From assembly GCA_020073115.1 (NCBI GenBank), contig JAIQFU010000010.1:1-46257 (forward strand): a stretch of 46,257 nucleotides of DNA, written 5' to 3'. The stretch comes from Terriglobia bacterium (GTDB lineage: Bacteria; Acidobacteriota; Terriglobia; Bryobacterales; Bryobacteraceae). Positions 21,432-45,934 of this stretch are shown here, in pieces. Each line of letters begins with the position of its first letter. The first letter of the stretch is position 1. The notes beneath the pieces are model-generated. The model did no database searches, had not been told where the DNA came from, and was given only the letters and a program-made list of their open reading frames with translations. The translations under genes were made by a program, and so were the position numbers.

Positions 21432-21523
21432 GGCAACCAACTTTCGGCTCTGCGCAGGAATCTGACAGGCTCCCAGACTGACGGGCTTTCGGCCCGCAGC
21501 GTCTTTCGGCTACACTCGGCAGT

Positions 21524-21829: not shown

Positions 21830-21832
21830 GCT

Positions 21833-26877: not shown

Positions 26878-27011
26878 GTCTCCTCCTGCCAGACACGAAG
26901 GCGGGACGAATCCCGTTGCCGGCTGCAGCCGCCGCACAAATTGCCTGTGGCCCATTCCGGTGTGCCAGCTTATGGTCCGTCGATGTTCGGCCCGTGGTCA
27001 TAGAAGTTCGT

Positions 27012-27241: not shown

Positions 27242-27988
27242 ATGATGACAAGATGTGTAATTGCAGTGTGGCTGCTTGCGATAGGAGCGGCATACGCCCA
27301 GAAGTCGGAGGGGCCGCAGCCGCCGGTTGTGGATCCAGGCGGTCCAGGCAAGCCGCCGTCGGATGCCATCGTTTTGTTCAACGGACGGGACAATTCCGGT
27401 TGGACCAGAATGGACGGGTCGCCGTCGCGCTGCACAGTCGCTGACGGCGTGATGACCTGCAAAACCGGCGCCCTCGATACGCAGAGTACGGAGAAATTCC
27501 GCGATGCGCAGATCCACGTAGAGTTCAATCTCCCTTCCGAGCCGGAAATGAGGGGGCAGGGGCGTGCGAACAGCGGAATTGTGCTCCAGAACCGGTACGA
27601 GATACAGATTCTGGACTCTTATCACAATGAAACTTACGCTAACGGGTCCTGCGGCGCGCTCTATGGACAATCAGCGCCGCTGGTTAACGCGAACCGGCCC
27701 CCCGGCGAGTGGCAGAGCTATGATATTACGTTCCACGCCCCAAGCTGCGCCGCCGATGGCTCCGTAGCGACCCCTGGCAGCCTCACGCTGCTGTTCAACG
27801 GCGTGCTGATCCAGGACCACGTGCCCGTGCGGGGGCGGAAGTGCGTGGCCGACGCGGGCCCATTAGTCCTGCAGGACCACAGCCAGTCTGTGGGCCGGAA
27901 GATCGGGACGGCTACAGGGGTAACCGAGGGCGCCCCGGATACGACGATGAAATTCCGCAACATCTGGATGCGGAGGCTGAGCCAATAG
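27242..27988 (+). CDS. DUF1080 / 3-keto-glycoside hydrolase-lyase family protein, second copy
   Basis: The 248-residue paralogue of the protein at 5192-5989 shares the same landmarks: an N-terminal signal (RCVIAVWLLAIGAAYA), VDPGGPGKPPSDAIVLFNG, 'CTVADGVMTCKTGAL', 'SGIVLQNRYEIQILDSY', and a final 'MKFRNIWMRRL'. The fold is a jelly roll. DUF1080 proteins cleave the bond of 3-keto-glycosides produced by a partner dehydrogenase, and here the next gene, 33 bases on, is again a Gfo oxidoreductase. The cassette order DUF1080 then Gfo matches the minus-strand copy, so the pair was duplicated as a unit. It acts in the periplasm and is under the operator-bearing promoter at 27120-27171. Confidence 0.88.
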   Translation: MMTRCVIAVWLLAIGAAYAQKSEGPQPPVVDPGGPGKPPSDAIVLFNGRDNSGWTRMDGSPSRCTVADGVMTCKTGALDTQSTEKFRDAQIHVEFNLPSEPEMRGQGRANSGIVLQNRYEIQILDSYHNETYANGSCGALYGQSAPLVNANRPPGEWQSYDITFHAPSCAADGSVATPGSLTLLFNGVLIQDHVPVRGRKCVADAGPLVLQDHSQSVGRKIGTATGVTEGAPDTTMKFRNIWMRRLSQ

Positions 27989-28021: not shown

Positions 28022-29299
28022 ATGGAAAACCGACGATCGTTCTTGACCAGGGCGATGGCGGGAGTTGCCGCGGCGGAGGTCTCCAAGGCTCCGGCCGCCT
28101 CCGACCAGTTCGTGGTGGGGTTTATTGGGACCGGCATTCGAGCCAATTCAGCCCTGATTCCACAATTCAAGTTCAACCCGTCCTTTCGCATCGCCGCGCT
28201 GTGCGATGTGTACAAGACTAACTTGGACGAGGCCGCCGGTCGCGTGGGCGGCGCCGTGGATACGTATGGGGATTACCGGCGAGTGCTCGACCGCAAGGAT
28301 ATCGACGTCGTGGTGATCGCGGCGCCCGACCACTGGCACTGTCCAATGGTCATGGCGGCCTGCGAGGCGGGCAAAGACATTTATCTGGAGAAGCCGGTCT
28401 CGAACGACATCGACATGTGCCTCAAGGCGGTGGCAGCCGCCCGGAGGTACAAACGTGTGGTACAGGTCGGCTTGATGCAGCGTAGCAGCTTGCCGTTCAC
28501 GGAGGCCTACAAGGTCGTCCAGAGCGGTATCCTCGGCAAGGTTCGCCATGTCGTGGTGATAAATCCGGGCGGCGCCGTGCGGCCGGCCCGCCCGGGGGCG
28601 CCGGCAGCCGCCGGGCGCCAGGCAAGGACCGAGCCTTCCGACCCTCCGCCGGGACTCGATTGGGAGATGTTTCAGGGCCCGGCTCCGCGCCGGCCGTACA
28701 GCTACTCGCGCCAGCACGATTGGCGCATGTATTGGGACTATGGCTGCGGCCCACTCTCGGACTGGGGCGTGCATCTCCTCGACATTGCGCATTGGTACAT
28801 GGGAGTCACCGAGCCCGCGCGCACAGCTGACGCGGTGTCTGGATGGTTCAACCGGCCCCAGGACGAACGGTTTCCGGACACGACCGAGGTCTCCTGGCTA
28901 TATAAGGATTTCGTCGCCAACTACAGCTCGCGATCGGATCTTCTAGGTACTTACTTATGGGGTGACCAGGGCGTGCTGTTCGTCAACCGGTACGGCTACA
29001 CCGTTCGGCCCGTTCCGACGGGCCAGGACTGGACGCGCACCAGCAGTGCGAAACCGCCGTTTGAAGAGAAAAAGGTGGCCTTGCACGACGAGCCAGGGAA
29101 CTACCAGGCATCCTTCGAGTCCGACTGCGGCCGGCACATTATGAATTTCCTGGAGTGCATAAAGAGCCGGGAGCGGCCGGTGTGCGATATCGAGATCGGC
29201 GCCGTCTCCACCATGCCTACCCTGATGGGAGGCCTTTCCATCCGGAACGGCGGGAAGACTGTCGCCTGGAATGGTCACGGCGCCGAGCTACGGGCATAG
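28022..29299 (+). CDS. Tat-exported Gfo/Idh/MocA oxidoreductase (Gfo-4)
   Basis: This 425-residue protein is the close paralogue of Gfo-1 (3846-5117) and shares nearly all motifs. It has a Tat-type leader (MENRRSFLTRAMAGVAAAE), a Rossmann turn GFIGTGIR, the EKP motif LEKPVSND, 'DHWHCPMVMAACEAGKDIY', and a Pro/Ala-rich insert at about 183-210 before PPPGLDWE. AGAAGGAG precedes the ATG. The shared C-terminal half includes 'WGVHLLDIAHWYMGVTEPART', identical in Gfo-1. It is probably the oxidase partner of the adjacent DUF1080 protein, making keto sugars in the periplasm. Having two such pairs in one locus may widen the range of glycosidic linkages handled. Confidence 0.9.
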   Translation: MENRRSFLTRAMAGVAAAEVSKAPAASDQFVVGFIGTGIRANSALIPQFKFNPSFRIAALCDVYKTNLDEAAGRVGGAVDTYGDYRRVLDRKDIDVVVIAAPDHWHCPMVMAACEAGKDIYLEKPVSNDIDMCLKAVAAARRYKRVVQVGLMQRSSLPFTEAYKVVQSGILGKVRHVVVINPGGAVRPARPGAPAAAGRQARTEPSDPPPGLDWEMFQGPAPRRPYSYSRQHDWRMYWDYGCGPLSDWGVHLLDIAHWYMGVTEPARTADAVSGWFNRPQDERFPDTTEVSWLYKDFVANYSSRSDLLGTYLWGDQGVLFVNRYGYTVRPVPTGQDWTRTSSAKPPFEEKKVALHDEPGNYQASFESDCGRHIMNFLECIKSRERPVCDIEIGAVSTMPTLMGGLSIRNGGKTVAWNGHGAELRA

Positions 29300-32310: not shown

Positions 32311-33225
32311 TCAGCGCGCGATCGGACCATCCGTGCCGGGGATCACACGCGTCAGATCGTCGCTTAAGATCGATGGACACCAGCGGGCCTCGATGTGCTC
32401 GACGACCAGTTCAGTACCGCGCGCTTCGCTGACGAATGGGCGCCTGCGCGGATCATACCCCGCGTCGGTCAGATCCCGCACCAGTACCATGTTGAAGCCG
32501 AGCCGGGTCATCATGCGGATTGCGAACGAGCGGTCGAGGATACAGGCATTGGTGTGAACGCCCATGATGGCGAGATTGGTGATGCCTTCCTGCTTACAGT
32601 AGTTGTAGACTTCCTGGCCGTCGTCGCTGATGCCGTCAAAACCCACGATATCAATGGCCGGGTGCTCGCGCTCCCACGGATAATTACCCCTTGTAGTTTT
32701 CGGCCCGGGACCCACGTATTCCTTGTCGATCGGATCGCTACAGCCGCCGCTTATGGGAAAGATGCGCCTCTCTTCCGGGGTCTGCACGGTCGCCTTGATC
32801 GGGATGGGTGAGGAAGCCATCGGCGCACGCTGCATTCTGAGCCGCTCGGGTCTCCCCTCGTAATATTTGATCGTGTCACTGGGACAGTGAAAGATCATGA
32901 CGCCCCGGTTGCGGGCGGCGTTGACGACCTGGTTCATCCGCGGCGCCATAACGGCCACACGCTGTGCCTGACCAGGGCAGGTGTGAGTGTCCCACATATC
33001 GCAAATGATGATAGCCGTCTGCGCCACTTCCCAGCGCAGTTCCTCTTCAGAGGGCCGCACGTTGCCGCTGCCGGGCGGCTGCTCCACGCGGCGGCGCGCC
33101 CGAAGGCTGAGCGTCCCGGGGACTTTGGGGCGATTGAGCTGCCATTCGCTCTCCGGCTGCGCCATCTGCGCGGCGGCCATCCCCAGCGCGCCCGGCAGAA
33201 CTGCTAGAAAAGATCGTCGATACAT
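32311..33225 (-). CDS. Exported isochorismatase-fold cysteine hydrolase, copy 1
   Basis: The 304-residue product has a Tat-like leader (MYRRSFLAVLPGALGMAAA). Isochorismatase-superfamily residues are the catalytic Asp76 in ICDMWDTH and the nucleophile Cys228 in GVHTNACIL. Compared with typical members (about 180-210 residues) it has an insert at roughly 118-185 containing two further cysteine and proline-rich segments. Family members hydrolyse amides and ureido or imide bonds, or vinyl ethers. The exact partner copy lies at 42795-43709 on the plus strand with the same length and no gaps. It is second in the operon after the GH9 gene. Function in a glycan locus is unknown; it might act on an amide or acyl decoration. 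Confidence 0.8.
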   Translation of the reverse strand: MYRRSFLAVLPGALGMAAAQMAQPESEWQLNRPKVPGTLSLRARRRVEQPPGSGNVRPSEEELRWEVAQTAIIICDMWDTHTCPGQAQRVAVMAPRMNQVVNAARNRGVMIFHCPSDTIKYYEGRPERLRMQRAPMASSPIPIKATVQTPEERRIFPISGGCSDPIDKEYVGPGPKTTRGNYPWEREHPAIDIVGFDGISDDGQEVYNYCKQEGITNLAIMGVHTNACILDRSFAIRMMTRLGFNMVLVRDLTDAGYDPRRRPFVSEARGTELVVEHIEARWCPSILSDDLTRVIPGTDGPIAR

Positions 33226-33351
33226 AATCCTCCTCTTTGGTCCTGGTTGGGCCGGGGTGATTTTCCCGGTCGTCTTCGCAGATGAAACCGAACCTCCGCC
33301 TGCCGAACGGCAGGAACTCCCGCGCGTCCGGCCGTATCGCTCCCTCGCGTT

Positions 33352-35913
33352 TTAACCCCGGCGGGGCTGATGCTCGAGGATCCACCGCGCTGCAAGCACA
33401 TCGAAAATGTAGGAACCGGCGCCATGTATTACGTATTCCGTCTGGTTAAAGTAGTAAGGGAAGTTCTTCAAGTCCATGAACTCCGGCCGCATGAATGACG
33501 CGCCTGAGATCACCCCTCCCGGAATATACGCGTAGTCGTCCCGGTTCAAGCCATAGGCGATCAGCGCTGAGTTCGCTCCCACGCCGGATACATAACTTGT
33601 GTTCGTTGCCGGGTGACACCCGAGCACGAAATTCACAACGTTCAGCAGCGTGTCCGGACCGAAGATCTCGGGCAGATGCTTGTGATAGAAGTAGTCGCGC
33701 ATGGCATCGCTCTGCAGATCCCATCCGAAGCCCATGATCGAGCCGCCTCTGGCACGCTCGGCCGAGTCCAGTTTCCACTCCGATTTCAGGACGTAGGAAG
33801 GAAAACGAACGCCGTAAGGATTCGAGGCCTCCACTGCATCCGCGGCAGCCCTCCATTTCTTCGCGATCTCCAGAACGAGGCTGCGAAATTCCGGATCGGA
33901 AACCTTGGGCAACAGGCGCACCAGCGCCCATCCTGGCCCACGGCCTACCTGCTCCGCCGGCGCGGACCGTATTTGGGGAAGCAGCGCGGACAAACGGTTC
34001 TGGTAGACCGGATCGCTGGTGGTAAGCCATAGCTCGGCCGTAGCGGCGATCTCGTCCCCCGGGAAACTCCCGCCGCGTCCCACGTATGCGTTCGGCGCAT
34101 AGAGGGGCGGGTTCGTCTGCTCGTACTCCCAAAGCTTGCGAGCCGCGGCCAGGCACTCGTCCGCAAGCGCGGCTTTCTTCAGACGCAATACGCGGCTGGC
34201 GACAGCGAGCGTTTGGGCCACTCGGTATTGCAGCCCGGTGTTGCGGTTCGTGAATGCCCAGCGGTCATCTGCCTTGCCGGAGCGCTCTCCCTGTATCTGG
34301 TCGGGCTTTAGGCTATTGTCATAGACGCGATTGTCCGTGATGTTGATTGGATCGCCCGAAATATCGTATTGGGTCTGCGAATTCTCGATAATGCCGGCGA
34401 AGATGTGCCCCGCCACCCGGAAAGACGCCAGCAGTCCTTCCACTCCGTACTCGACCTGTTGCAGAAGGTCTTCTTCTCCGTCCGGGACGTGGAGCAACAC
34501 CTCCCGGCTGGCCCGGCGGACGGTAGTCGCGTCCAACCCCGGCTTGAACTCCTCCTGTGCCAGGGCCAGGGCCAAGGTTGTGGCCGTGATGCTGCCGGCC
34601 GGCAGATCGTAATCGGCGGCATCGTGCCATCCGCCCCAATTCATGCCGGGAATGTGCTCGTAATCGGCGAATTGCGTCTCACGCTGGCCTTGCTGGTACC
34701 CGTCGAAATGCATCTTGCCGGCCGGCGCCTGCAGCGCGTCGTCTAAATGGCACGCTCCGTGCCAAATACGATTTCTCTCGCGGACGGCCACATGGCACAT
34801 CTGAACAGGGAGGAAAACCTCCAGGGTCGGCTGCCAGGCATCGTCATACACCTGCCGGTCGATGCGGAACGGCCCAGCCGTCTGCCCCCCGTATTCCAGG
34901 ACGTAGGCCCCGGGGGTTATAACATCGGTGAAATCGAATATAGCGTACCGGTAGTAGAGGAAACGCCCCCAAGGTTTCGGCGCGCCGGACTTCACCAGCT
35001 CCTTTTCCCCACTGAGGGTCAATTTGAAGAGGCTGGCCTGTTCCACGGCTTGCTCACGATGGTCGAGTTCCAGAACTGCCCGTTTTGGCTGCTGGGGATG
35101 GTATCCCACCTGGGAGATGCCAATGACCGGCGGGCGGCGCCAACTCGGATCGATGGAAGGGGTGATCTGAAGCTCCAGTTCGGTTTCGCTCGACCCCGGC
35201 TCGATGGCCGCGGTCACCGAAAACCATCCGGTCGGGTGGCCGCCCCGCTCGTCGCCGAGTTCGAGCGTGCCGCCTCGCCGCTCCCATTTGATGCTGTGCG
35301 GCCGGTCCTCTTGAGCGACGCGCAAAGTGCGAGTGGAGCTCATCAGGACCCGCTGTCCTCCGTACTGCCGGGGAAAGACGCCCGTCGTCGCATCGCCCTG
35401 AAACGATTTCAGAAAGTATGCAGGAGGGTAGAGGTACATGCGAAGGGCCGCCTGGCGGAGCTTGCTCCAGTCCAGCGGTCCGCCGAACTTAAGGTTGACG
35501 AACATGCGCTCGCCGTCGGTCCGGCATATCAACTGGTAAGCCAGGCTCAGGCCGGACGCTTCTCCGATAATCGTGGCCGTCGACCGCTCCCGGTCGACTA
35601 CGCGGCGCAACACGCGGGCGGACGCGCGGGAGGAGGAGTCCCGCCCCGTAACCAGCAGGTCGGAAGCGAGCAGCCACTCGCCAGCTTGCATCATCTGGAG
35701 CCCGCCCCGCATGCTCGGGTCGGTATTGTGATAGACCAGGAATACGAAGCCCGGCGCCTCGAAGTACTCCTTCTCCGCGAGAGCGATGCGCGCTGCTGGA
35801 GGCGCTGGGGTCCTCTGCTCTTGCGCCTGCGGCGCAGGGGCCTCGGATCCCTCCGCGGAAACGAGAGAGCCCAGCGCCGCCGCCGAGTTCCTCATGAAGT
35901 TTCTTCTGTCCAC
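33352..35913 (-). CDS. Tat-exported GH9 glycoside hydrolase with N-terminal Ig domain
   Basis: The start is the GTG at 35913, because GGGAGGAGG lies 7 bases upstream and the protein then begins (M)DRRNFMRNSAAALG, a Tat-type leader; it has 853 residues. An additional N-terminal beta domain (about 45-250) precedes a cellulase-type Ig domain (about 262-355, starting VIGISQVGYHP). The (alpha/alpha)6 GH9 domain follows. The paired catalytic aspartates are in GGWHDAADYD (about Asp431 and Asp434) and the proton donor is probably the Glu of NQTEYVIHGAG (about 826), near GH9's C-terminus. 'LGCHPATNTSYVSGVG' is the usual GH9 substrate loop. GH9 enzymes cut beta-1,4-glucans and related backbones by inversion. 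It heads an operon with the isochorismatase-fold gene; its promoter and operator are at 35961-36003. Confidence 0.88.
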   Translation of the reverse strand: MDRRNFMRNSAAALGSLVSAEGSEAPAPQAQEQRTPAPPAARIALAEKEYFEAPGFVFLVYHNTDPSMRGGLQMMQAGEWLLASDLLVTGRDSSSRASARVLRRVVDRERSTATIIGEASGLSLAYQLICRTDGERMFVNLKFGGPLDWSKLRQAALRMYLYPPAYFLKSFQGDATTGVFPRQYGGQRVLMSSTRTLRVAQEDRPHSIKWERRGGTLELGDERGGHPTGWFSVTAAIEPGSSETELELQITPSIDPSWRRPPVIGISQVGYHPQQPKRAVLELDHREQAVEQASLFKLTLSGEKELVKSGAPKPWGRFLYYRYAIFDFTDVITPGAYVLEYGGQTAGPFRIDRQVYDDAWQPTLEVFLPVQMCHVAVRERNRIWHGACHLDDALQAPAGKMHFDGYQQGQRETQFADYEHIPGMNWGGWHDAADYDLPAGSITATTLALALAQEEFKPGLDATTVRRASREVLLHVPDGEEDLLQQVEYGVEGLLASFRVAGHIFAGIIENSQTQYDISGDPINITDNRVYDNSLKPDQIQGERSGKADDRWAFTNRNTGLQYRVAQTLAVASRVLRLKKAALADECLAAARKLWEYEQTNPPLYAPNAYVGRGGSFPGDEIAATAELWLTTSDPVYQNRLSALLPQIRSAPAEQVGRGPGWALVRLLPKVSDPEFRSLVLEIAKKWRAAADAVEASNPYGVRFPSYVLKSEWKLDSAERARGGSIMGFGWDLQSDAMRDYFYHKHLPEIFGPDTLLNVVNFVLGCHPATNTSYVSGVGANSALIAYGLNRDDYAYIPGGVISGASFMRPEFMDLKNFPYYFNQTEYVIHGAGSYIFDVLAARWILEHQPRRG

Positions 35914-35960
35914 GCTTAAGCCTCCTCCCGGTTCCGGCTCCCAGGACACGGCACCTGCTT

Positions 35961-36003
35961 CTGGTATTGCAGTAATCTTAATCGGGGGCGAGAGGACTGT
36001 CAA
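35961..36003 (-). promoter_or_regulatory. Promoter and operator of the GH9 operon
   Basis: Minus strand: TTGACA (35998-36003), 17-base spacer, TAAGAT (35975-35980), then the operator, CTGGTATTGCAG on the plus strand (35961-35972), 9 of 12 to the palindrome and 11 of 12 to the site at 27012. The GH9 GTG is 47 bases beyond the operator. The whole box, including the bases around the -10 element, resembles the nitrilase promoter at 27012-27055. Confidence 0.75.
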
Positions 36004-36054
36004 GGCTCGCAGATCTGAAGGGCGGCTGTACAGGATCCCGATAAACTATACATC

Positions 36055-36099
36055 TTGACTTCGACCGACCCTGACCGTATCTTGTAATTGCTATCGCAC
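36055..36099 (+). promoter_or_regulatory. Promoter and weak operator of the alpha/beta-hydrolase gene
   Basis: Plus strand: TTGACT (36055-36060), 17-base spacer, TATCTT (36078-36083), then TTGCTATCGCAC (36088-36099), 9 of 12 matches to CTGATATCGCAG (the variant at 17677 and 38506) and 7 of 12 to the perfect palindrome. It is the least certain operator in the set. It is divergent from the GH9 promoter, 52 bases away. Confidence 0.5.
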
Positions 36100-36136
36100 T
36101 AATAGAGGTGCGGAATTCAACGGCCTGTTGAACCCA

Positions 36137-38458
36137 ATGAGATCGCCGCAAATGAGGAACCGCATCAAAATTCGAGCCATCGCACTACTTCTTGTGGGCA
36201 TCCCTCTGCTGGCCCAGGACAATCTGGCGGGCACTTCGCCGCTCACCATGACGGGCGACCTGGCAGCCGCCATGGTGAACGGCATTCACCGGTTCCTGGA
36301 CCGAGAAACGGCTGCCGCGCCGCAAAATCGCGCGCGCTTCTGGCGCCGCGATTACGGTTCGCCGGAAGCGTACAGCAAATCGGTCGCCGCAAATCGCGAG
36401 AGGCTGAGGACCATCATCGGCGCGGTGGATGAACGTGCCCGCTTCGACGCTGTCAGCCTGATCGCCGACACCCGCGCCGGGTCCTTAATCGGCAGAGGTC
36501 CGGGCTATCGTGTCCATGCCGTCCGCTGGCCGATTTTCGGCGGTGTGACGGTGGAGGGCCTCATGCTCGAACCGGACGGCGTTCCCATAGCCCGCGTGAT
36601 CGCCATACCGGATGCCGACTGGTCGCCCGAGATGCTTGCCGGTCTGGCGCCCGGCATCCCGCCGGGAGCGCAGTTCGCGCGGCGGTTGGCCGAGAACGGC
36701 TGCCTGGTCCTGGTCCCCACCATCATCGACCGCAAGGATACCTGGTCCGGAATTCCCGGCATCCGGATGACCAACCAGCCGCACCGGGAGTGGATCTACC
36801 GCATGGCCTTCGAGGCCGGACGCCAGATCGTCGGGTACGAAGTGCAGGCCGTGCTCGCCGCAGTGGACTGGTTCGAGCGGGAGAATGCCAAAACGCGCGC
36901 TCCCATCGCTGTTGCCGGCTACGGCGAAGGCGGCCTCATCGCCTTCCACAGCGCGGCTCTCGATCCGCGCATCGACGCCGCGCTGGTGAGCGGATACTTC
37001 CAGCCTCGCGAGGAACTTTGGAAAGAACCGATTTACCGCGACATCTGGTCCCTGGTGCGCGAGTTCGGCGAGGCGGATATCGCCAGCCTTATCGCCCCGC
37101 GCGCGCTGGTGGTGGAGTACTGCCGCTTTCCGCTTGTGACCGGCCCGCCGCCGCAGACGGACCAGCGCCGGGGCGCCACACCGAATGGAACAATCACGAC
37201 ACCGCCCGCCGAGGCCGTGCGGGGCGAGGTCGAAAAGGCGCGTGTCCATTTCGAGCGGCTCGGCGCGGGGGAACGCCTGACGCTGGTGGAAGACGGCGCC
37301 GAAGCGCAGCCGGGTTCCGACCAGGCGGTGGCCGCCCTGCTGCGCGCCGTGGGCGCCAAGCGGCCCATGCGGGTGGCGGGCGCCCTCCCACGGCGCATAG
37401 ATTCCGGCCCGAATGCCGAAGACCGTATGCATCGGCAGTTCGATACCTGGGTGAACTACACGCAATGGCTGATCCGGGAATCCCCCAAGCGCCGCCAGGA
37501 GTTTTGGGCGAAGGCTGACGCCTCCACCCCGGAACGATGGAAGCAAACGACACAGTTCTATCGCGACTACATCTGGGACGAAATCATTGGACGGTTGCCC
37601 GCTCCCAGTCTGCCGATAAATCCGCGGACGCGGCTCATCTATGACAATCCGAAGTTCCGCGGCTATGAAGTGGCGCTGGACGTTTGGCCGGACGTGTTCG
37701 CATATGGCATTCTGCTGTTGCCCAAGGACCTCAAGTCCGGCGAGCGCCGCCCTGTGGTAGTGTGCCAGCACGGCCTGGAAGGGCGCCCGCAGGCCGTCGC
37801 GGATCCTAACGTCGATAACCCCGCATACCACCGGTACGCCGCGCGCCTGGCGGAACAGGGATTCGTCGTATATGCGCCGCAGAACCCTTATATCGGCCAG
37901 GACCGTTTTCGCCTGCTGCAGCGCAAGAGCCATCCCCTCAAGTTGTCGCTATTCTCCTACATCCTCGGCCAGCAGCAGCGCACTCTCGAATGGCTCAAGT
38001 CGCAGCCGTTCGTCGACTCGCGGCGCATCGGCTTTTACGGCCTTTCTTACGGTGGTAAGGCTGCGGTCAGAGTTCCACCCCTGCTCGATGATTATGCGCT
38101 CTCCATCTGTTCGGGCGACTACAACGAATGGGTCTGGAAGACCACCAGCGTCGAGTCGCCGTACTCCTACATGCTGCTGCAGGAGTATGACATGTTGGAG
38201 TTCGACTTTGCGAACAAGGTAAACTATTCGGACCTGTCCAACCTGATGGCGCCCCGTCCGTTCATGGTGGAAAGGGGGCATCGCGACAGCGTGGCTCCGG
38301 ACGAGTGGGTGGCGTATGAGTACGCCAAAACCCGCCTCTTCTATTCGCAAATGAAGATCGAAGACCATGTCGCGATCGAGTTCTTCGACGGGCCGCACAT
38401 GATCAACGGCCAGGGCACGTTCGACTTTCTGAAACGGTATCTGAATTGGCTGCGCTGA
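36137..38458 (+). CDS. Two-domain alpha/beta hydrolase, exported, N-terminal domain lacking its serine
   Basis: The ATG at 36137 is used; a TTG at 36128 or an ATG at 36152 (MRNRIKIRAIALLLVG) are alternatives, and the last gives the cleanest signal peptide. Counting from 36128 there are 776 residues. Two alpha/beta-hydrolase domains follow one another. The first, about 130-410, has the nucleophile elbow GYGEGG at 264-269, with Gly where the Ser should be. The second, about 505-776, has GLSYGG with Ser640, a probable Asp720 in ERGHRDS and His757 in DGPHMIN. The second domain is therefore probably active, as an acetyl-xylan-esterase or dienelactone-hydrolase type enzyme, and the first degenerate or regulatory. 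Its likely job is removing acyl groups from the glycan. It is apparently a single-gene unit. Confidence 0.8.
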   Translation: MRSPQMRNRIKIRAIALLLVGIPLLAQDNLAGTSPLTMTGDLAAAMVNGIHRFLDRETAAAPQNRARFWRRDYGSPEAYSKSVAANRERLRTIIGAVDERARFDAVSLIADTRAGSLIGRGPGYRVHAVRWPIFGGVTVEGLMLEPDGVPIARVIAIPDADWSPEMLAGLAPGIPPGAQFARRLAENGCLVLVPTIIDRKDTWSGIPGIRMTNQPHREWIYRMAFEAGRQIVGYEVQAVLAAVDWFERENAKTRAPIAVAGYGEGGLIAFHSAALDPRIDAALVSGYFQPREELWKEPIYRDIWSLVREFGEADIASLIAPRALVVEYCRFPLVTGPPPQTDQRRGATPNGTITTPPAEAVRGEVEKARVHFERLGAGERLTLVEDGAEAQPGSDQAVAALLRAVGAKRPMRVAGALPRRIDSGPNAEDRMHRQFDTWVNYTQWLIRESPKRRQEFWAKADASTPERWKQTTQFYRDYIWDEIIGRLPAPSLPINPRTRLIYDNPKFRGYEVALDVWPDVFAYGILLLPKDLKSGERRPVVVCQHGLEGRPQAVADPNVDNPAYHRYAARLAEQGFVVYAPQNPYIGQDRFRLLQRKSHPLKLSLFSYILGQQQRTLEWLKSQPFVDSRRIGFYGLSYGGKAAVRVPPLLDDYALSICSGDYNEWVWKTTSVESPYSYMLLQEYDMLEFDFANKVNYSDLSNLMAPRPFMVERGHRDSVAPDEWVAYEYAKTRLFYSQMKIEDHVAIEFFDGPHMINGQGTFDFLKRYLNWLR

Positions 38459-38505
38459 CAGGTCGCGGCCGCGTTTCCGGACCAGAATCTGCGCTCTATG
38501 CCATA

Positions 38506-38551
38506 CTGATATCGCAGCCGTAGAACACGGAATCGCCGCATTCTGAGTCAA
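38506..38551 (-). promoter_or_regulatory. Orphan promoter-operator pointing into the hydrolase gene
   Basis: CTGATATCGCAG (38506-38517) is identical to the Gfo-3 operator. On the minus strand a TTGACT (38546-38551), 18-base spacer and TGTTCT (38522-38527) precede it. Transcription would run against the alpha/beta-hydrolase gene, with no minus-strand gene to serve. It may be an auxiliary operator for receptor 2 (centre to centre about 145 bases from 38651-38662), a relic of a lost divergent gene, or an antisense promoter. Confidence 0.5.
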
Positions 38552-38618
38552 TCTCCGGCAATACTCCGCAAGGTCTCTTGTTGATTTTGCCCTCGAAAAC
38601 ACGCGATGCAAGTCGCTC

Positions 38619-38662
38619 TTGACAGCATCCGGGAATCCGAGTACGATTGACTGAAATACCAG
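38619..38662 (+). promoter_or_regulatory. Promoter and operator of the receptor-2 operon
   Basis: Plus strand: TTGACA (38619-38624), 17-base spacer, TACGAT (38642-38647), then CTGAAATACCAG (38651-38662) starting 3 bases past the -10 box, 9 of 12 matches to CTGATATATCAG. The geometry equals that at 27012-27055. The receptor ATG is about 320 bases downstream. Confidence 0.72.
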
Positions 38663-38980
38663 AAGCCAAAGGCTTGGGCCTGCCCCGGCCGGATGATCGC
38701 CCGCGGCGGGCGATGTCTACCGGCTGCGCAGGCGCTTGTCCCAAAGGAATGGATTGCGCGTGACACCAGCTATGCACGGCGGCGCAACGTTTGTCCTCTC
38801 CCTACCCCCGGCGCCAGTCCGCGCCCCACTCGCTTTCGGTCGCACGTGCGCGGTTCAGAGCCGCGGCCCTAAGGGAGCGGGGCGCGGACGCGCCGCGGGC
38901 AGAAGGTCGCGCGCTGCTTCCACTCCGCCGGGAACTCCCATCCTGTACAGATTTACGATCCACACCGTAGGAGAGAAATC

Positions 38981-41900
38981 ATGCTTTTGCAGCTAGCATC
39001 GCGGGTTGCCTTGTCGGCCGTTGTGTCGGCGATGATCCTAACCGCCCAGACTGGAAGCGGCACGGTCCAAGGCGTCGTCAAGGACGCCAGCTCCGCCGTG
39101 GTTGCGGGAGCGAAAGTAACCCTCGTTCATACCGCGACGATGAGAGAGTACGGGACGACGGCCAACGACGTCGGAGCCTTCCGGTTCCCGCCCGTCCAGC
39201 CCGGTTCTTACGAGATCACCGTGACATCTTCCGGTATGGAGACATGGAAGGGCGCCTTCCTGTTGGCCGTCGGGCAGACGGCGGAGATCAGCCCTGTCAT
39301 GAAGGTGGGGGCAGTGACCACCCAAGTCACCATAGAAGGGGAGGCTGCTCCCCTGCTTGCCACGACGGAAGCGACCATCTCGAGGAACCTCGAGCGCGCA
39401 CGCATCGAGCAGTTGCCCGTCGACGGGCGTAACATTGCGAACCTCGTATTGATGAGCACCCCCAGTCTGGTCGGGGGACAGGACGGCGCCATCAACCCAA
39501 TTAACACGGGATTGCGCGACGGTGTGGAGTTGTACCAGGACGGCGCGGTCATCAAGAACCGCGACGTGGGGGACTGGAGCGGACGCCTTCCCGGCGTTGA
39601 CAGCGTCGAGGAATTGCGCGTGGAGACGAGCCTTTCCTCGGCTCAGTTCGACCGCCCCGGGTCGGTCATGCTCTCCACCAAAAGCGGGACGAACCGCGTT
39701 CACGGAAGCCTGTTCGAGACGAACCGGAACAGCGGCGTGGGCGTCGCCCGGCGGCGCCAGGACTACTACACCAAGCCCCCGCACTACGTGCGCAACGAAT
39801 TCGGCGGATCGGTGGGCGCGCCGGTGTACCTTCCAAAGATCTACAACGGCAAGAACCGCACGTTCTTTTTCACCTCGTATGAGGCCTATCGCCAAGCCAG
39901 CGCCTCCACCACGGGCACCACCATGCCGACGATGGCGATGCGCAACGGCGACTACAGCGGGTTGGTCGACAACCTCAACCGGTTGACCGTCATATATGAC
40001 CCGTTGAGTACCGGAACGAAAGCGCAAAACTGGGCGCGCACGCCGTTTGGGAACAATGTGATCCCGGCGAATCGCCAAAGCCCCAACGCCAAGTATCTCT
40101 ACAGCATCATGCCGGAGCCGACGTTCCCGGGGGTCAATCCCAATATCGGCAACAACTTCTACGGCGTCCTCGGCAATTTCACGACTGACTATATGAGCAC
40201 GAGCCGGATCGATCACCGGCTGGGCGACCGCGATCAAGTGTTCGGCAGAGTTTCGCGCAATGTGGACACTCAGATCTACGGGAACGGCACGCCGACGCTA
40301 ACCCCGGCAAGCAATCCCCTGAACGAGGTCCGCAATTACTACGGCGACAGCAGCGCCGCCGGGTCTTGGACCCACTCGTTCTCGCCTTCATTCCTGAGCG
40401 AGTTGCAGGTCTCGTTCGCGCACGAGTTCAAGTTCACAGGGGCCCCTTCGGCGCCTGGCATCGGCAACATGGCCGATTATCTGGGCATGCCGAATATAGG
40501 CGGCTCGTCCCTGACGGCATACCAGACCAGCGGCATGGGTTTTGGGACCAACTACTCCGTGCAGCAGGCGCGCCAGAACACCACCAGGATTTTCCTGGTA
40601 AATGAAAATCTTACGCGTATGTACGGCCGGCACCAGATCCAGTTCGGCGGCCAACTCCACATGGAGTTCCTCAATGTGTGGATCGACCAGCCTACGTCCA
40701 CGATCAGCTACGGTAATCTGGCCACGGCGCTCTTCGATCCGGCCAGCGGATCGTCGTACGGCGCCGCTGCGCGAACCGGCTTTACGGGCGCGAGTTTCTT
40801 CCTCGGCTACGTCAACACATTCAAGCAGACTACCAAGCGCCCCGCGTTCGACCTGCGCGAAAACAAGTACTCCGGATATGTTCAGGACAATTTCAAAGCC
40901 AACTCCAGGCTGACCCTGAATTTCGGCCTGCGCTACCAGAATATGCCTGCTCAAAGCGTGGAAGGTAATTTCCAGGTTGGGTTCGATAAGAGTACGCACT
41001 CAATGGTGCTCGGACGATCGCTCCAGGATATGTACGCAGCCAATATGACTACTCCCGGCGTGATCGGTCAGTTGCAGGCGATTGGCGCAAAATTCGAGTC
41101 GGCGGATCAAGCCGGGCTTCCGTCGGGCTTGATACACGGCAATCCATGGAACTTCGAGCCGCGCTTCGGGTTCGCCTACCGGCTAGGCGACACCATGAAG
41201 GCGATTATGTTGCGCGGGGGCTGGGGCCTTTACGATTCGCAGACGGCCCTGCGCACCTGGGACAACCTTGCGGGCAGCGGAATACCCTACGGCTACCCAA
41301 TTCAGTACTGGGTTAGCAACCAGGCGCTGGCTGGAGTCATACCTGGCCCGGATGGCCTGCCAAATTATGAACTCCGGTCGGTTCCGCAGTTCGTAGCCGG
41401 CGTCAATACACGGAACGTTCTCGACAATCCATCGTTTGTACAGATTACGCCCGGCTGTTGCGCCCTGCAATTCATGAGCCCCGATCAGCCGCCCACCATA
41501 GCTCAGGAGTGGAATTTGTCCATAGGTCGCGAACTGTTTTCCGGTATCGTGGCCACAGCCAGTTACGTGGGCACGCACGCGAAAAATCTCCCGCAGCAGT
41601 ACAATTTCAACGCTGCCCCGAACTCGTATATATGGTACGTAACGACGGGTCAGCCGACGCCCAGCGGCACGTATGCTTCGACGGGAATGAACGACTACGA
41701 TAAGACCACGTACGGTAGCATGACCGAGTATGTGAAGAGGGCAGTCTCCAACGCGAACAGCGCCACCATCGAAGCGCAGCGCCGGTTCTCCCGTGGCGTT
41801 GGCTTCCAGTTCTCCTATGTAATGACCAACCCGTTCACGGAGTCAACCCTGGTCGGAAATGGCGGCGGCACCACATTGACGCCGGCTTCGAGTTATATGC

Positions 41901-42697
41901 CGGGCGCGGTTCCAACGGATCTCGACGCGATGAATCGCTTCCTGAATTACGCACGAGACACGGCGATCCCCCACCACCAGTTGAGGTGGAACTGGGTGGC
42001 CGAGCTTCCGTTCGGGCGAGGCAAGCTTCTAGGCCACAATGCCGGAAGGCTTCTCGACGCCGTCATTGGCGGATGGCAGGTCGCCGGAACGGGTTCCTAC
42101 AATAGCCGGTACTGGTCGCTCCCGACCAGCAACTGGGGCACGACAGGGAAAGTGGAGACGTACGGGACCCAATACCCGATTCAGGACTGCTCCAGCGGCG
42201 TGTGCCGCCCTGGTTACCTGGCCTGGAACGGGTACATTTCGCCGCCGCTTGTCAACCGGAAGGACGCCGCCGGCAATTGCACCGGCATTTGCGGCATTCC
42301 TTCGAGTTACGCTCCGTCCAATCTGCCGTTGATTCCCTACGGCCAGACGGCTCTGCCGCCTAATGCTCCTTCCAATACCGTCATGTCCACCTACTGGGAG
42401 ACCAACACCGTGTGGATACCACTGCAAAACAATACCGTGACGCGGACCAGCGTGAACACGAACCTGCATTGGTGGAGGAATCAGTTTATGCCGGGTCCAT
42501 GGGCGTTCAATCTTTCAGCGTCGGCGTTCAAGAGCGTTTCCTTGACAGAATGGGTTAAGCTACGGCTCAATGCCGATTTCTTCCAGGTGTTGAACAACCC
42601 AGGGATGTCAACGCCGGGGAGCAACGGCATTCTGAGCACGCAGAACTCGTCGAACTCGCCGCGGAACCTTCAGCTCACTCTGAGGCTGACGTGGTAA
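38981..42697 (+). CDS. TonB-dependent receptor with carboxypeptidase-regulatory-like domain (receptor 2)
   Basis: The 1238-residue outer-membrane importer starts at the ATG at 38981 (TAGGAGAG upstream) with a signal peptide (LLQLASRVALSAVVSAMILTA). Residues about 25-110 form the CarboxypepD_reg-like domain (GTVQGVVKDASSAVVAGAKV), about 115-240 the plug (RIEQLPVDGRNIANLVL, SVMLSTKSGTN), and the rest the barrel. The last residues LTLRLTW end in an aromatic, as BAM-assembled proteins do. It is related to receptor 1 but clearly divergent, and again no SusD-type lipoprotein gene is adjacent. It heads the operon with the isochorismatase-fold and beta-helix genes. The long leader and operator (38619-38662) resemble those of receptor 1. 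The ligand is unknown. Confidence 0.92.
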   Translation: MLLQLASRVALSAVVSAMILTAQTGSGTVQGVVKDASSAVVAGAKVTLVHTATMREYGTTANDVGAFRFPPVQPGSYEITVTSSGMETWKGAFLLAVGQTAEISPVMKVGAVTTQVTIEGEAAPLLATTEATISRNLERARIEQLPVDGRNIANLVLMSTPSLVGGQDGAINPINTGLRDGVELYQDGAVIKNRDVGDWSGRLPGVDSVEELRVETSLSSAQFDRPGSVMLSTKSGTNRVHGSLFETNRNSGVGVARRRQDYYTKPPHYVRNEFGGSVGAPVYLPKIYNGKNRTFFFTSYEAYRQASASTTGTTMPTMAMRNGDYSGLVDNLNRLTVIYDPLSTGTKAQNWARTPFGNNVIPANRQSPNAKYLYSIMPEPTFPGVNPNIGNNFYGVLGNFTTDYMSTSRIDHRLGDRDQVFGRVSRNVDTQIYGNGTPTLTPASNPLNEVRNYYGDSSAAGSWTHSFSPSFLSELQVSFAHEFKFTGAPSAPGIGNMADYLGMPNIGGSSLTAYQTSGMGFGTNYSVQQARQNTTRIFLVNENLTRMYGRHQIQFGGQLHMEFLNVWIDQPTSTISYGNLATALFDPASGSSYGAAARTGFTGASFFLGYVNTFKQTTKRPAFDLRENKYSGYVQDNFKANSRLTLNFGLRYQNMPAQSVEGNFQVGFDKSTHSMVLGRSLQDMYAANMTTPGVIGQLQAIGAKFESADQAGLPSGLIHGNPWNFEPRFGFAYRLGDTMKAIMLRGGWGLYDSQTALRTWDNLAGSGIPYGYPIQYWVSNQALAGVIPGPDGLPNYELRSVPQFVAGVNTRNVLDNPSFVQITPGCCALQFMSPDQPPTIAQEWNLSIGRELFSGIVATASYVGTHAKNLPQQYNFNAAPNSYIWYVTTGQPTPSGTYASTGMNDYDKTTYGSMTEYVKRAVSNANSATIEAQRRFSRGVGFQFSYVMTNPFTESTLVGNGGGTTLTPASSYMPGAVPTDLDAMNRFLNYARDTAIPHHQLRWNWVAELPFGRGKLLGHNAGRLLDAVIGGWQVAGTGSYNSRYWSLPTSNWGTTGKVETYGTQYPIQDCSSGVCRPGYLAWNGYISPPLVNRKDAAGNCTGICGIPSSYAPSNLPLIPYGQTALPPNAPSNTVMSTYWETNTVWIPLQNNTVTRTSVNTNLHWWRNQFMPGPWAFNLSASAFKSVSLTEWVKLRLNADFFQVLNNPGMSTPGSNGILSTQNSSNSPRNLQLTLRLTW

Positions 42698-42794
42698 GAG
42701 GTTGACGACGCAGTTTGGCGGGCGCCGGCGGCCTTTGTATTAGCGGGCTGCCGGCAACTGCCAATCGGCTGCGACCCCGTGCAAAGGAGCCTTA

Positions 42795-43709
42795 ATGTAC
42801 CGACGATTCTTCCTTGCCATGCTGCCCGGAGCGCTGAGCATGGCCGTGGCGGATGCCCAACAAGCGGACAGCGAATCCCTGCCAAAACGCCCCAAAGTGC
42901 CCGGAACGCTGCGACTGCGGGCGCGCCGCCGCCAGGAACAGCCGCCCGGCAGCGGCAAACCGAAGATCTCCGAAGAGGAGTTGCGCTGGGAGGTCGCCCA
43001 GACCGCCATCATCATCATCGACATGTGGGACACTCATCTCTGCGGTCTTTCGGCGCAGCGTGTGGCTGCAATGGCGCCGCGGATGAACCAGGTCGTCAAT
43101 GCCGCCCGTAACCTGGGCGTGGCGATCATCCATGCTCCCAGCGACACGATGAAGTATTACGAGGGAAGACCCGAGCGGCAGAGAATGCAGCGTGCGCCAA
43201 TGGCTCCCTCATCCATCCCGGTCCGGGCGACCGAGCCAAGCCGGGAGGAGCAGGCGATATTTCCGATATCCGGCGGCTGTGATGACCCGGTCTCGAGGAA
43301 ATTTACCGGTCCCGCGCCGCCCACTACCAGGGGTGTGTATCCCTGGGAGCGCGAGCACTCGGCCATCGACATCGTCGGGTATGACGGCATCAGCGACAGC
43401 GGGCAGGAAATCTACAATTTTTGTAAGCAGGAAAGCATCACGAATATCGCCCTCATGGGCGTCCACACCAACATTTGTATCCTCAACCGCGCCTTCGGAG
43501 TCCGCGAGATGACGCGACTCGGCTTCCACGTGGTAGTGGCGCGGGATTTGACGGATGCGATGTACGATCCGCGAAAGCGACCGTTCGTCAGCCACGCGCG
43601 CGGTACGGAACTGGTTGTCGAGCACATCGAGGCTAACTGGTGTCCGTCAATCCTGGGCGAGGACTTGACGCGGGTGATCCCGGGCACGGATGGCCCTGCT
43701 TCGGCCTAA
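42795..43709 (+). CDS. Exported isochorismatase-fold cysteine hydrolase, copy 2
   Basis: This 304-residue paralogue of the protein at 32311-33225 aligns without gaps along its length. It has a Tat-like leader (MYRRFFLAMLPGALSMAVA), Asp76 in IIDMWDTH and Cys228 in GVHTNICIL, plus the same mid-protein insert ending TTRG-YPWEREH. AAAGGAG precedes the ATG by a few bases. It sits 97 bases after receptor 2 and 44 bases before the beta-helix gene. Members of this superfamily hydrolyse amide or related bonds; export and duplication within two operator-controlled operons suggest a specific role in processing the substrate. The reaction is unknown. Confidence 0.8.
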   Translation: MYRRFFLAMLPGALSMAVADAQQADSESLPKRPKVPGTLRLRARRRQEQPPGSGKPKISEEELRWEVAQTAIIIIDMWDTHLCGLSAQRVAAMAPRMNQVVNAARNLGVAIIHAPSDTMKYYEGRPERQRMQRAPMAPSSIPVRATEPSREEQAIFPISGGCDDPVSRKFTGPAPPTTRGVYPWEREHSAIDIVGYDGISDSGQEIYNFCKQESITNIALMGVHTNICILNRAFGVREMTRLGFHVVVARDLTDAMYDPRKRPFVSHARGTELVVEHIEANWCPSILGEDLTRVIPGTDGPASA

Positions 43710-43753: not shown

Positions 43754-45934
43754 GTGAACCGACGATCATTTTTGACGAGCAGCTTCGTTGCCGCTGCGGG
43801 CGCCCAGACGCCGCGCGGCGCTGTCGCGAACGGCGCCGAGGTCTACGTCGCGCCCAGTGGCCGGGACGAAAACCCCGGCAATAAGATCAGACCCTTTGCC
43901 ACCCTGCAACGTGCGCGAGACGAGGTGCGCAAATTAGTCGCCAAGGGGCTCAAATCAAATGTCACCGTATGGATTCGCGGAGGCACGTACACGCTGCGCG
44001 ATCCGCTGGTTTTCGGGCTTGAGGATTCCGGCACGGACCGATACTCGATTACCTACCAGGCGGTTCCGGGGGAGCGACCCATCATCACTTCTGGCGTGAA
44101 AATCACAGGCTGGAAGGAGCCGGAGACCATGCTCAGCGAACTCCCGGTTACTGCCGGCGGAAAGGTCTGGGTGGCAGATGTTCCGGATTCCCTCGGCCGC
44201 TTCTACACTCTGTACGACGAGCGAGGACACTTGCCGCGTGCCCAAGGGAGAGGCTTCAACCCCGAGGATCCGCCGGCCGGCGTGGAACGAAACGACCGGA
44301 CCAGCCGCGTCCGCAACCTCTACTATCCCGCGGGCATACTCCGCAACTGGAGCAACCTCGATGATGTCGAGATAGTGATTCGATCGACTCCTTCCTCTCA
44401 ATCGACTATGAATGTCCTGGCGCTGGAGTCGGTCGACGAAAAAGCGCGGTTGGCGCGCACCAAGATCCCCGCCACCTACTCTCTGGCCAAAACGACGACG
44501 AGGCAGCCGACGGCCTGGGTGGAGAATGTGCTGGAGGTTCTGGACCACCCCGGAGCATGGGCGCTCAACACTCATACTCGCAAGCTTTACCTGTGGCCGC
44601 GAACGGAGAAGCCGGAAGGCATAGTGGCCCCGCGCCTCCGCGAGTTGATCCGCGTGGAGGGCAAAATCGATATCGATGGTCCCACCGACATCCCGGTTCG
44701 TAACCTCATCTTCCGGGGGCTGACGTTCGCGCACGCCGATCGCGACGTGTGGAACGAGAACGATGTCGGCATGCAGCACGATTGGGAGATGATCGACAAA
44801 CCTAATGCTCTGGTCCGCCTGCGCGGGGCCGAGCGATGTACGGTCCAGAATTGCAGGTTCCGGGATAGCGGCGGCGACGCCGTTCGGCTGGATCTGTACG
44901 CCCAGGGTAACCGCATTGAAGGCAACGAAATCCGTCACATGGGACAGGGGGGCATCCTACTGCTCGGGTACGGAGCCGGCCGCAAGGACGTCAACAAGCG
45001 CAACGAGATTCTCAACAATCATATTCACGATTGCGGCTTGATCTATTGGCACTCGCTTGGAGTGGTGTTGTGGCAGAGCGGAGAGAACCACGTCGCGAAC
45101 AACTACATTCACCACATGCCGCGCCACGCTATTTGCCTGGCCGGCCCTCGCGTTCCCTATTTCCAGCGGCCATGCGATACCCGGGAAATCTGCAAGAGTC
45201 TGCGCTGGCAGGAGATCGGAGGACCCAAGACGGCGTGGGACGACGTCATACCGTTCCTGCACACCAGGAAGAACCTCATCGAGAACAATGAAGTGGAGCG
45301 CGTACTGCAGAAACTGGGCGACGGGGCGGCCATAAACGTTAGCGGCTGCGGCGAAGGCGATCTCATCAAGCGTAACTACGTCCACGACATCTTCTCGAAC
45401 GAGTGGGTGAGCGGCTGTCTGCGCACGGACGACTGGCAGCGTGGAACCACCTGGGAAGAGAACGTCATCTACCGCTCCAACGCCGGTGCATGGGAACACA
45501 AGGGCGGTAACAGCGTCATCAATAACTACGCGATCGACGTCCTTCCAAGAGGCTATTTCCGGATTTTCAGAGACGGCCCTGGGGAGCGCATTGACGGAAG
45601 CGTGCTGGAGCGGAACATTTTCTACAACTCGAACGGGGCCGCGGTGTTTTACACGTTCGCTATCGGCCCGCAACAGGTGGCCAAATCGAAGATCGAGCAT
45701 AACCTGTATTACTGCGGCGGAGTGCAGGAGAGTTCCACGCCGGCGTTTTTGCAGACTCTTCGCGCGCAGGGCGTCGCCTCGACGGACGCGTACGCCGATC
45801 CGATGTTCCTGGAGTTGCAGCCCCGCGATTTTCGGCTGAGGCCTGATTCGCCGGCGCTCAAGATGGGAATCAAGCAGATCGATTTGAAAGATGTCGGGCT
45901 AAGAAGGGACTTTCCGAAATGGCTGCTGGAATGA
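43754..45934 (+). CDS. Right-handed beta-helix glycosidase/lyase-like protein (GH141-like)
   Basis: This 726-residue exported protein starts at a GTG (43754) after CGGAGG, with a Tat-type leader (MNRRSFLTSSFVAAAGAQ). The N-terminal region 'EVYVAPSGRDENPG' and 'PFATLQRARDEVRKL' is typical of right-handed parallel beta-helix CAZymes. An intervening beta domain (about 100-290) follows. The helix region (about 300-640) has repeated N-x-I/V turns such as NRIEGNEIRHM, NEILNNHIHDC and NHVANNYIHHM. The arrangement resembles GH141 and related families (alpha-L-fucosidase or xylanase activities) or pectin-lyase-fold enzymes; I cannot fix the family. Candidate acidic residues lie in FRDSGGDAVRLD and GDGAAINVSG. 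It ends the receptor-2 operon. Confidence 0.8.
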   Translation: MNRRSFLTSSFVAAAGAQTPRGAVANGAEVYVAPSGRDENPGNKIRPFATLQRARDEVRKLVAKGLKSNVTVWIRGGTYTLRDPLVFGLEDSGTDRYSITYQAVPGERPIITSGVKITGWKEPETMLSELPVTAGGKVWVADVPDSLGRFYTLYDERGHLPRAQGRGFNPEDPPAGVERNDRTSRVRNLYYPAGILRNWSNLDDVEIVIRSTPSSQSTMNVLALESVDEKARLARTKIPATYSLAKTTTRQPTAWVENVLEVLDHPGAWALNTHTRKLYLWPRTEKPEGIVAPRLRELIRVEGKIDIDGPTDIPVRNLIFRGLTFAHADRDVWNENDVGMQHDWEMIDKPNALVRLRGAERCTVQNCRFRDSGGDAVRLDLYAQGNRIEGNEIRHMGQGGILLLGYGAGRKDVNKRNEILNNHIHDCGLIYWHSLGVVLWQSGENHVANNYIHHMPRHAICLAGPRVPYFQRPCDTREICKSLRWQEIGGPKTAWDDVIPFLHTRKNLIENNEVERVLQKLGDGAAINVSGCGEGDLIKRNYVHDIFSNEWVSGCLRTDDWQRGTTWEENVIYRSNAGAWEHKGGNSVINNYAIDVLPRGYFRIFRDGPGERIDGSVLERNIFYNSNGAAVFYTFAIGPQQVAKSKIEHNLYYCGGVQESSTPAFLQTLRAQGVASTDAYADPMFLELQPRDFRLRPDSPALKMGIKQIDLKDVGLRRDFPKWLLE

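Follow-up and report, generated by a model that had tools for sequence, protein, structure and literature searches.

The isochorismatase-like (IHL) family is described as having an Asp-Lys-Cys triad as its signature (PMC7948467). In the biuret hydrolase BiuH this triad has been shown by mutagenesis, Lys142 being reported as replaceable by Arg alone, with a ~25-fold loss (PMC5806882), and the oxyanion hole of BiuH and of the triuret hydrolase TrtA is given as the backbone nitrogens of the Cys and of the residue four positions before it (PMC5806882, PMC7948467). There is also the example of YcaC, an IHL protein described with Ala in the place of the triad Lys (PMC12553813). The two proteins compared here with these systems, ICH1 and ICH2, are encoded in a window of 46,257 nucleotides (the whole stretch of DNA that was analysed, contig JAIQFU010000010.1 of assembly GCA_020073115.1, from a Terriglobia bacterium of the Acidobacteriota). 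They are a real, duplicated and exported pair and a new variant inside the isochorismatase superfamily, with the Asp and the Cys of the triad kept and, as far as alignments can tell, no Lys aligned at its third position. As for their role, the explanation tentatively favoured here, at somewhat less than even chances, is that they act in the periplasm as Cys enzymes on small molecules derived from sugars, their gene having been recruited into this locus and duplicated. Among the openly licensed papers listed, judged mainly by titles, none describes an exported and sugar-linked isochorismatase family, and the pairing of ThuA with Planctomycetes gave nothing; the combination of signal peptide, Acidobacteria and isochorismatase gave an unrelated mention of the domain.

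ICH1 (32311..33225, reverse strand) and ICH2 (42795..43709, forward strand), delimited by their open reading frames, Pfam matches and alignment, have 304 residues each and align without gaps, with 226 of 301 aligned residues identical (75%), so that the description of the pair in an earlier, sequence-only reading of this DNA holds. Their divergence, estimated according to Nei and Gojobori, amounts to dN ~0.18 against dS ~0.62 and is therefore consistent with purifying selection acting on both genes. The Pfam family Isochorismatase (PF00857) is matched with 38.2 and 45.8 bits, above its gathering score of 27, the match being limited to residues ~203-257, and a scan of the pair against NCBIfam gave no model at a threshold of 0.001. 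It had also been said that members of the superfamily are usually shorter, which is in agreement with the three further isochorismatase frames of this genome (177, 217 and 237 amino acids). A third, more distant copy of ICH, missed in the sequence-only reading, lies on another contig of the same genome; it is 46% identical and has a GFO/IDH/MocA oxidoreductase gene less than 1 kb away.

Both proteins start with the Tat-like leader ascribed to them, that is, a twin-arginine motif followed by a hydrophobic stretch within approximately residues 1-28 (RRSFL in ICH1, 33142..33225, reverse strand; RRFFL in ICH2, 42795..42878, forward strand; the leader ends are approximate in this pattern-based assignment). 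Of the 22 rows of the clade to which the window proteins belong, 21 have an RRxFL-like motif ahead of the domain, the 22nd being cut by a contig end, and a hydrophobic 12-mer stands upstream of the domain in 79 of the 87 rows of the family (20/22, 20/21, 11/12, 25/29 and 3/3 by group). These counts are of sequence patterns, read upstream in frame as far as the nearest stop and with start codons taken as they stand. The four rows without a hydrophobic stretch in the distant group D (29 rows from 28 distinct loci, comprising planctomycete and verrucomicrobial records and some genomes of the same phylum as the window) come from one protein with an N-terminal fusion, present in two rows, and from two orthologs that are nearly identical and do have a twin-Arg motif. 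Export looks like a property of the family, in contrast with E. coli RutB (ureidoacrylate amidohydrolase), which as annotated starts near the domain and has no leader.

The AlphaFold model, built with 25 relatives, has a predicted local distance difference test score (pLDDT) of 80 and a predicted template-modelling score (pTM) of 0.81. The solved structure nearest to it is that of RutB (PDB 8bkd, 8bll), with Z 17.4 and a root-mean-square deviation of 3.3 over 182 aligned residues, followed by a triuret hydrolase (Z 17.1), a Pseudomonas cysteine hydrolase (17.0) and a biuret hydrolase (up to 16.5), and the top Foldseek match is again a triuret hydrolase (E 1.9e-8). The fold predicted for ICH1 and ICH2 is the IHL one. 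Profile-profile alignments with E. coli RutB, PncA, YecD and EntB and with the three shorter isochorismatase frames of this genome identify as the catalytic Asp the one at codon 76 of ICH2 (43020..43022, forward strand; ICH1 counterpart 32998-33000, reverse strand), aligned with D24 of RutB, and as the nucleophile the Cys at codon 228 (43476..43478, forward strand; ICH1 counterpart 32542-32544, reverse strand), aligned with C166. D76 is found in 85 of 86 relatives, the remaining row having a gap, and C228 in all of them. The position of the triad Lys, K133 in RutB, falls on codon 195 of ICH2 (43377..43379, forward strand), which is Gly in both window proteins and Lys in 2/86 relatives; some Lys is present between residues 190 and 203 in 22/86, at varying places. 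Since one hhalign alignment (A3) sets K133 of RutB opposite G195 and another (A2) sets it opposite a gap, no Lys is aligned either way, and for this reason the standard amidase mechanism should not be assumed. The label of cysteine hydrolase given in the sequence-only reading is therefore borne out as regards the fold and the Cys, but not as regards a mechanism of the usual kind.

The surroundings of the Asp-Cys pair also depart from the known enzymes. H113, D197, H224, N226 and D251 are present in 86/86 relatives, W78 and R232 in 85/86 each and H81 in 83/86. Nine active-site positions have been listed for BiuH and homologous enzymes; of these, the window proteins keep the Asp, the Gly and the Cys, and the other six are occupied in ICH2 by W78, H81, G195, D201, Q204 and R232, according to a mapping based on the spacing from the Asp and the Cys and on a gapless hhalign stretch; by spacing too, H224 takes the place of the second oxyanion-hole residue of BiuH and TrtA. 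In terms of likeness, RutB shares with ICH2 the fold and the aligned Asp and Cys, but has Q26, K133, F139, T142 and T170 where ICH2 has W78, G195, D201, Q204 and R232, and TrtA and BiuH share the fold, the Asp-Cys pair and the Gly located six residues before the Cys, but possess the complete Asp-Lys-Cys triad, of which the Lys is unaligned in ICH1 and ICH2. A basic residue near the place of the triad Lys (Arg or Lys at position 186, in 76/86 relatives) could in principle substitute for it. Might these proteins then be binding proteins or scaffolds, in which the fold was kept and the chemistry lost? The unaligned Lys and the replacement of six out of the nine positions of the BiuH list speak for it. 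Nonetheless, the conservation of the Asp (85/86, with one gap) and of the Cys (86/86), the new invariant His, Arg and Asp residues, and the precedent of YcaC, another IHL protein without this Lys (PMC12553813), make a non-catalytic role quite improbable. Regarding other Cys residues, C83 and C162 are conserved in most rows, and a C83-C162 disulphide was considered as a trait of the exported family; it was dropped, given that 11 proteins have lost C162 and 10 of them still have C83.

The unusual mid-protein insert claimed for residues 118-185 was overstated, and most of this region is ordinary. In the model, residues 119-122 and 126-133 are helices within blocks of pLDDT 86-94, and the poorly predicted part is located at ~160-190. 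The H113-D197 span comprises 84 residues, compared with 66 between the aligned points of RutB (18 more), and varies from 64 to 94 over the 86 relatives. A large family-specific insert was accordingly rejected, as its first part is confident helix and the excess over RutB is 18 residues. What does stand in this region is a private change of ICH1, ICH2 and the copy of locus L009 (a syntenic locus of another genome), the only 3 of 86 proteins with a TTRG motif, which also have in common a longer C162-W184 stretch.

A scan of genome contigs retrieved 23 loci, among which 17 show 62-72% identity and bear titles of Acidobacteriota groups, with the exception of one labelled Acidimicrobiia. By profile search, the family is present in 30 of 61 near-relative genomes (own genome included) and in 8 of 119 genomes from the phylum to which G460, a planctomycete according to the title of its locus L028, belongs (G460 included), and a phylum-wide search with a single window protein found it in 5 of 396 genomes (own included), with at most five candidates scored per genome. 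The maximum-likelihood tree unites ICH1, ICH2 and the copy of L009 in one clade (support 100/99), within which ICH2 groups with the L009 copy (100/94), and this clade is nested in the one of 22 rows (100/100); a second tree gives the same grouping. The simplest history is one in which the duplication came before the divergence from JOPF133, in whose genome a single copy is now seen. Among the tree neighbours of the window clade there are two planctomycete proteins of group D (L143 and L156) with an N-terminal part of ~184 amino acids that has no Pfam match at 0.001.

The position of the two genes had led to the proposal of a conserved step in the processing of the glycan of this locus. The arrangement itself is as described: ICH1 lies behind a GH9-type gene on the same strand (33352..36003, reverse; PF00759, 6.3e-19), with a gap of 126 bp, and ICH2 lies behind a gene for a TonB-type outer-membrane barrel (38981..42697, forward; PF25183, 3.2e-134), with a gap of 97 bp, and is followed after 44 bp by a GH141-like beta-helix gene (43754..45934, forward; Beta_helix 1.5e-15, GH141_M 8.7e-5, the latter under its cut-off). 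Within 5 kb of ICH1 there are also a DUF1080-type (3-keto-disaccharide hydrolase) gene (27242..27988, forward; PF06439, 4.2e-34) and a GFO/IDH/MocA oxidoreductase gene (28022..29299, forward; Pfam and NCBIfam); neither of these, nor ThuA or AP_endonuc_2, is found within 5 kb of ICH2 or of the L009 copy. Locus L009 keeps DUF1080, GFO/IDH/MocA, two GH9 (one of them cut), GH141-like, fucosidase, MFS and SDR genes, and there the ICH gene comes directly after the GH141-like one.

Conservation of such a step does not follow from the rest of the clade. Besides this genome, the association with a GH9/GH141-like glycan locus is found in just one, that of L009, the only locus in which relatives of these genes turned up near other clade-mates. 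Using profiles built for this work, none of the other 19 clade-mates has a GFO/IDH/MocA, DUF1080 or ThuA gene within 5 kb (which also counts against the sugar role favoured here), and 3/19 have a PQQ-type propeller. Among the Pfam matches listed for the 66 nearest neighbours of the clade-mates (two on each side of ICH, where present), there are at least one GH10, at least one TonB-type barrel and at least two AP_endonuc_2, and as 25 of 100 families were listed there may be more sugar families. For the close clade, an attempt to read the function from conserved neighbours was given up, none of them recurring in more than three loci; these neighbour clusters derive from a simple open reading frame caller that missed the ICH frame in 7/62 loci, where it was then placed by tblastn. 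In the opposite direction, a search at E 1e-100 in 80 other genomes found a relative of the GH141-like gene in one and of the GH9 gene in four. A homologous locus (L216, genome G424) has a GH9 gene 76% identical to that of the window in a compact set with barrel, CN-hydrolase, SDR, fucosidase and MFS genes, its main genes being 63-81% identical to those of the window, and it also contains a fragment like the 188-amino-acid open reading frame of the window; this set suggests which genes form the core of the locus. It comprises no ICH, nor does G424 have any family member at E 1e-20, and none was seen in the corresponding locus of G583 (L217, 13 kb, cut by the contig). As far as the close clade was covered, the family is thus mostly located outside glycan loci, the outcome that the sequence-only reading had itself named as speaking against its proposal. 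Because the clade-mates sit elsewhere and the homologous locus of G424 does without it, ICH counts in this lineage among the accessory genes of the glycan locus rather than its core.

These results bear on the function first proposed for the pair, namely an amidase or deacylase that strips an amide or acyl substituent from the glycan of the locus. In its favour, the closest folds are the C-N hydrolases RutB, BiuH and TrtA, the GH9 and barrel genes adjoin ICH1 and ICH2, and a carbon-nitrogen hydrolase gene is encoded both in this locus (25852-26955) and in the homologous L216. However, the Lys of the triad is not aligned, and the one of BiuH is reported to tolerate Arg alone, with the loss mentioned above (PMC5806882); ICH is absent from L216, its close relatives are located elsewhere, and no result points specifically to amide- or acyl-substituted sugars, which altogether makes this explanation unlikely.

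A general link to sugars does appear through fusions in the distant relatives, and not in the close clade. In group D, a ThuA domain (PF06283, a separate domain family that the window proteins lack) follows the ICH domain in the same polypeptide in 12/29 rows (12/28 distinct loci), 10 of these 12 fusions being above the Pfam cut-off, and two further rows, near-identical orthologs, have ThuA within 5 kb, which gives 14/29 fused or near. The Pfam background of ThuA is 66 matches in seven genomes of ~46 Mb together, or 1.4 per Mb; the profile of this work found none in the middle 10 kb of 40 control stretches, located at round-number positions set beforehand in seven genomes, with ~0.6 expected from the Pfam density. 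There are also more elaborate architectures, such as ICH-ThuA-SGL (gluconolactonase-like, L153) and ICH-DUF7133-HEAT-cytochrome c (L027), and the C-terminal extensions of L151, L155, L159, L163 and L164 resemble sugar-binding domains of GH2/beta-galactosidases, below the Pfam cut-off (1.2e-4 at best); no Pfam match is given by the L154 extension or by the N-terminal portion of L030. In group C, an AP_endonuc_2-type gene lies within 5 kb in 4/12 loci compared with 0/40 controls (~0.7 expected in 12 from the 285 Pfam matches in 46 Mb), and a GFO/IDH/MocA gene in 4/12 compared with 3/40. Published work connects partners of this kind with 3-keto sugars: according to Ampomah et al. (cited in PMC7404187), thuAB-dependent use proceeds via 3-keto derivatives, the DUF1080 protein BT2157 is reported as a 3-ketotrehalose hydrolase (PMC9007349), and TIM barrels of the sugar-phosphate-isomerase-like type are described as a 3-keto-O-glycoside beta-eliminase and a probable hydratase (PMC10628242).

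A number of points weigh against this reading or reduce its reach. The ThuA and AP_endonuc profiles were seeded from the groups that were then counted (11/12 ThuA fusions and 4/4 AP_endonuc), so that their matches are partly by construction and the 0/40 of the controls understates the background; the sugar link claimed here rests for this reason on the Pfam results and Pfam backgrounds of ThuA and AP_endonuc_2, the fairer yardstick. The GFO and PQQ profiles were likewise seeded with proteins of counted loci, and the backgrounds of both come from controls with the same profiles. The AP_endonuc profile is moreover insensitive, having missed a Pfam AP_endonuc_2 located ~1.5 kb from the ICH-ThuA gene L152 (genome G568) and two others among the neighbours of the close clade. 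Fisher tests (e.g., p 5e-7 for ThuA) are not relied on, being based on the self-seeded profiles and on the assumption that related loci are independent. ThuA is itself promiscuous, many of its 32 matches in three planctomycete genomes being in frames of 500-2068 amino acids, and the ICH fusions are only 4 of its 66 matches over the seven genomes, so that an ICH-ThuA fusion tells less than fusions normally do. Identity of the fused proteins to ICH2 is ~40%, and they do not count as independent cases, the fused state requiring three changes on the tree, at least two of them forced by well-supported branches. The nearest folds are ureido amidases. As regards the active site, Lys or Arg from elsewhere in the fold may fill it, the clustering of His and Arg around Cys228 is inferred, and the Lys is likewise absent from L105 and L106, two of the three shorter isochorismatase frames of the genome, which have Glu aligned there. 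In this they resemble YcaC, likened by description only, and the loss of the Lys alone is not unique to the ICH branch; unlike the window proteins, L105 and L106 retain the Phe and both Thr of the list (the equivalents of F139, T142 and T170). As a separate observation on the partner domain, planctomycete ThuA also occurs in frames of 1299-2068 amino acids, at times twice per frame (e.g., G568:C1:2961812-2963386 and G532:C1:2855007-2855642), as befits a promiscuous domain that is exported and related to sugars.

The context of group B (21 loci of mostly close kin) would suit nitrogen compounds or dehydrogenases of the propeller type just as well: 13/21 have a PQQ-like propeller, and its annotated loci L068 and L073 contain a SelA-like pyridoxal-phosphate enzyme, class-V aminotransferases, an amidohydrolase, a P5CR-type reductase and DUF3500. 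The corresponding alternative is an enzyme of the periplasm that hydrolyses small nitrogen compounds in general (ureides, N-carbamoyl or amino-acid derivatives) and whose position in the glycan locus would be incidental. It is favoured by the IHL fold, by the aminotransferases, reductase, SelA-like enzyme and amidohydrolase just mentioned, by an Amidohydro_2 gene (annotated in L029) that recurs upstream of the fusion genes in three planctomycetes, and by the varied neighbours of the close clade. The repeated fusion to ThuA and to sugar-type domains and the presence in sugar loci of two genomes speak against it, and it is considered rather doubtful. In the same group, ICH is preceded on its own strand by a PQQ-like propeller gene in L071-L074, L077, L078, L099 and L100, and in L072, L073 and L078 a gene of the SelA-like cluster comes next after ICH.

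What would the sugar-acting enzyme do, then, if the favoured explanation is right? Asp76 would act as the base that activates Cys228, which would attack (or protonate) a small sugar-derived substrate, presumably a carbonyl compound, in the periplasm, with His224 at the second place of the oxyanion hole and His81, His113 and Arg232 standing in for the lost active-site residues. An oxidised sugar or its product, that is, a 3-keto-glycoside, a 2-hydroxy-3-keto-glycal or a lactone, is proposed as the substrate because this class is the most consistent with the partner genes, and the candidate chemistry would be the opening, hydration or hydrolysis of a 3-keto-glycal or a lactone. A plant-glycan locus containing DUF1080 and GFO/IDH/MocA genes would have taken up the ICH gene, which most simply was duplicated before the JOPF133 split. 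The absence of the Lys also from L105 and L106, together with the promiscuity of ThuA, slightly lowers the odds of this explanation and slightly raises those of the nitrogen-compound alternative. In its more specific form, in which the Asp-Cys pair and new His/Arg partners replace the Asp-Lys-Cys triad and perform a periplasmic oxidised-sugar step alongside ThuA, it is possible but on the whole improbable. The broader sugar role is the best-supported hypothesis, though its odds stay somewhat below even.

The two ICH genes had also been placed in operator-controlled operons. A palindrome, CTGTACAG, is indeed present upstream of both gene pairs, 22 bases before the GH9 start (36026..36033) and 30 bases before the start of the barrel gene (38943..38950). 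It occurs twice in the window, with a chance expectation of 0.17 and at least two copies in 1 of 100 shuffles, figures that refer to a motif chosen after inspecting the very regions scored and to start codons taken mechanically. The palindrome is absent from the syntenic locus L009 and no regulator is tied to it, so of the claim there remains a candidate operator supported by circumstantial evidence. A one-base variant, CTATACAG, occurs once, 15 bases before the other barrel gene (variant at 15728-15735). As for regulators, L009 encodes a GntR/FCD protein of 259 amino acids, of which the window shows only a short N-terminal match at 21809-21913 (open reading frame 21389-21955, reverse strand), and a second GntR/FCD match is found at the contig edge (46122-46256, forward strand); one GntR/FCD gene of the window may thus be broken and one cut off. 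The locus also contains a second DUF1080-type gene (5192-5989, reverse strand), found by tblastn when the L009 copy served as query (identity 61% over 5249-5986), four GFO/IDH/MocA oxidoreductases (3846-5117, 10547-11929, 16092-17585 and 28022-29299, the last with a glycoside 3-dehydrogenase model as best NCBIfam match, far under its cut-off) and three DUF6259 proteins (6014-8245, 8280-10505 and 29347-31140).

The ICH proteins represent a little-studied branch of a known fold. An over-reading, in which they were a conserved step of one glycan locus, is replaced by a wider and testable sugar hypothesis, for which a family fused to ThuA, gluconolactonase-like and sugar-binding-like domains provides a concrete and expressible candidate. 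If true, this would mean that the isochorismatase fold performs sugar chemistry without its usual Lys, and that there is a sugar-acting branch in a superfamily whose compared relatives act on C-N bonds or on isochorismate.

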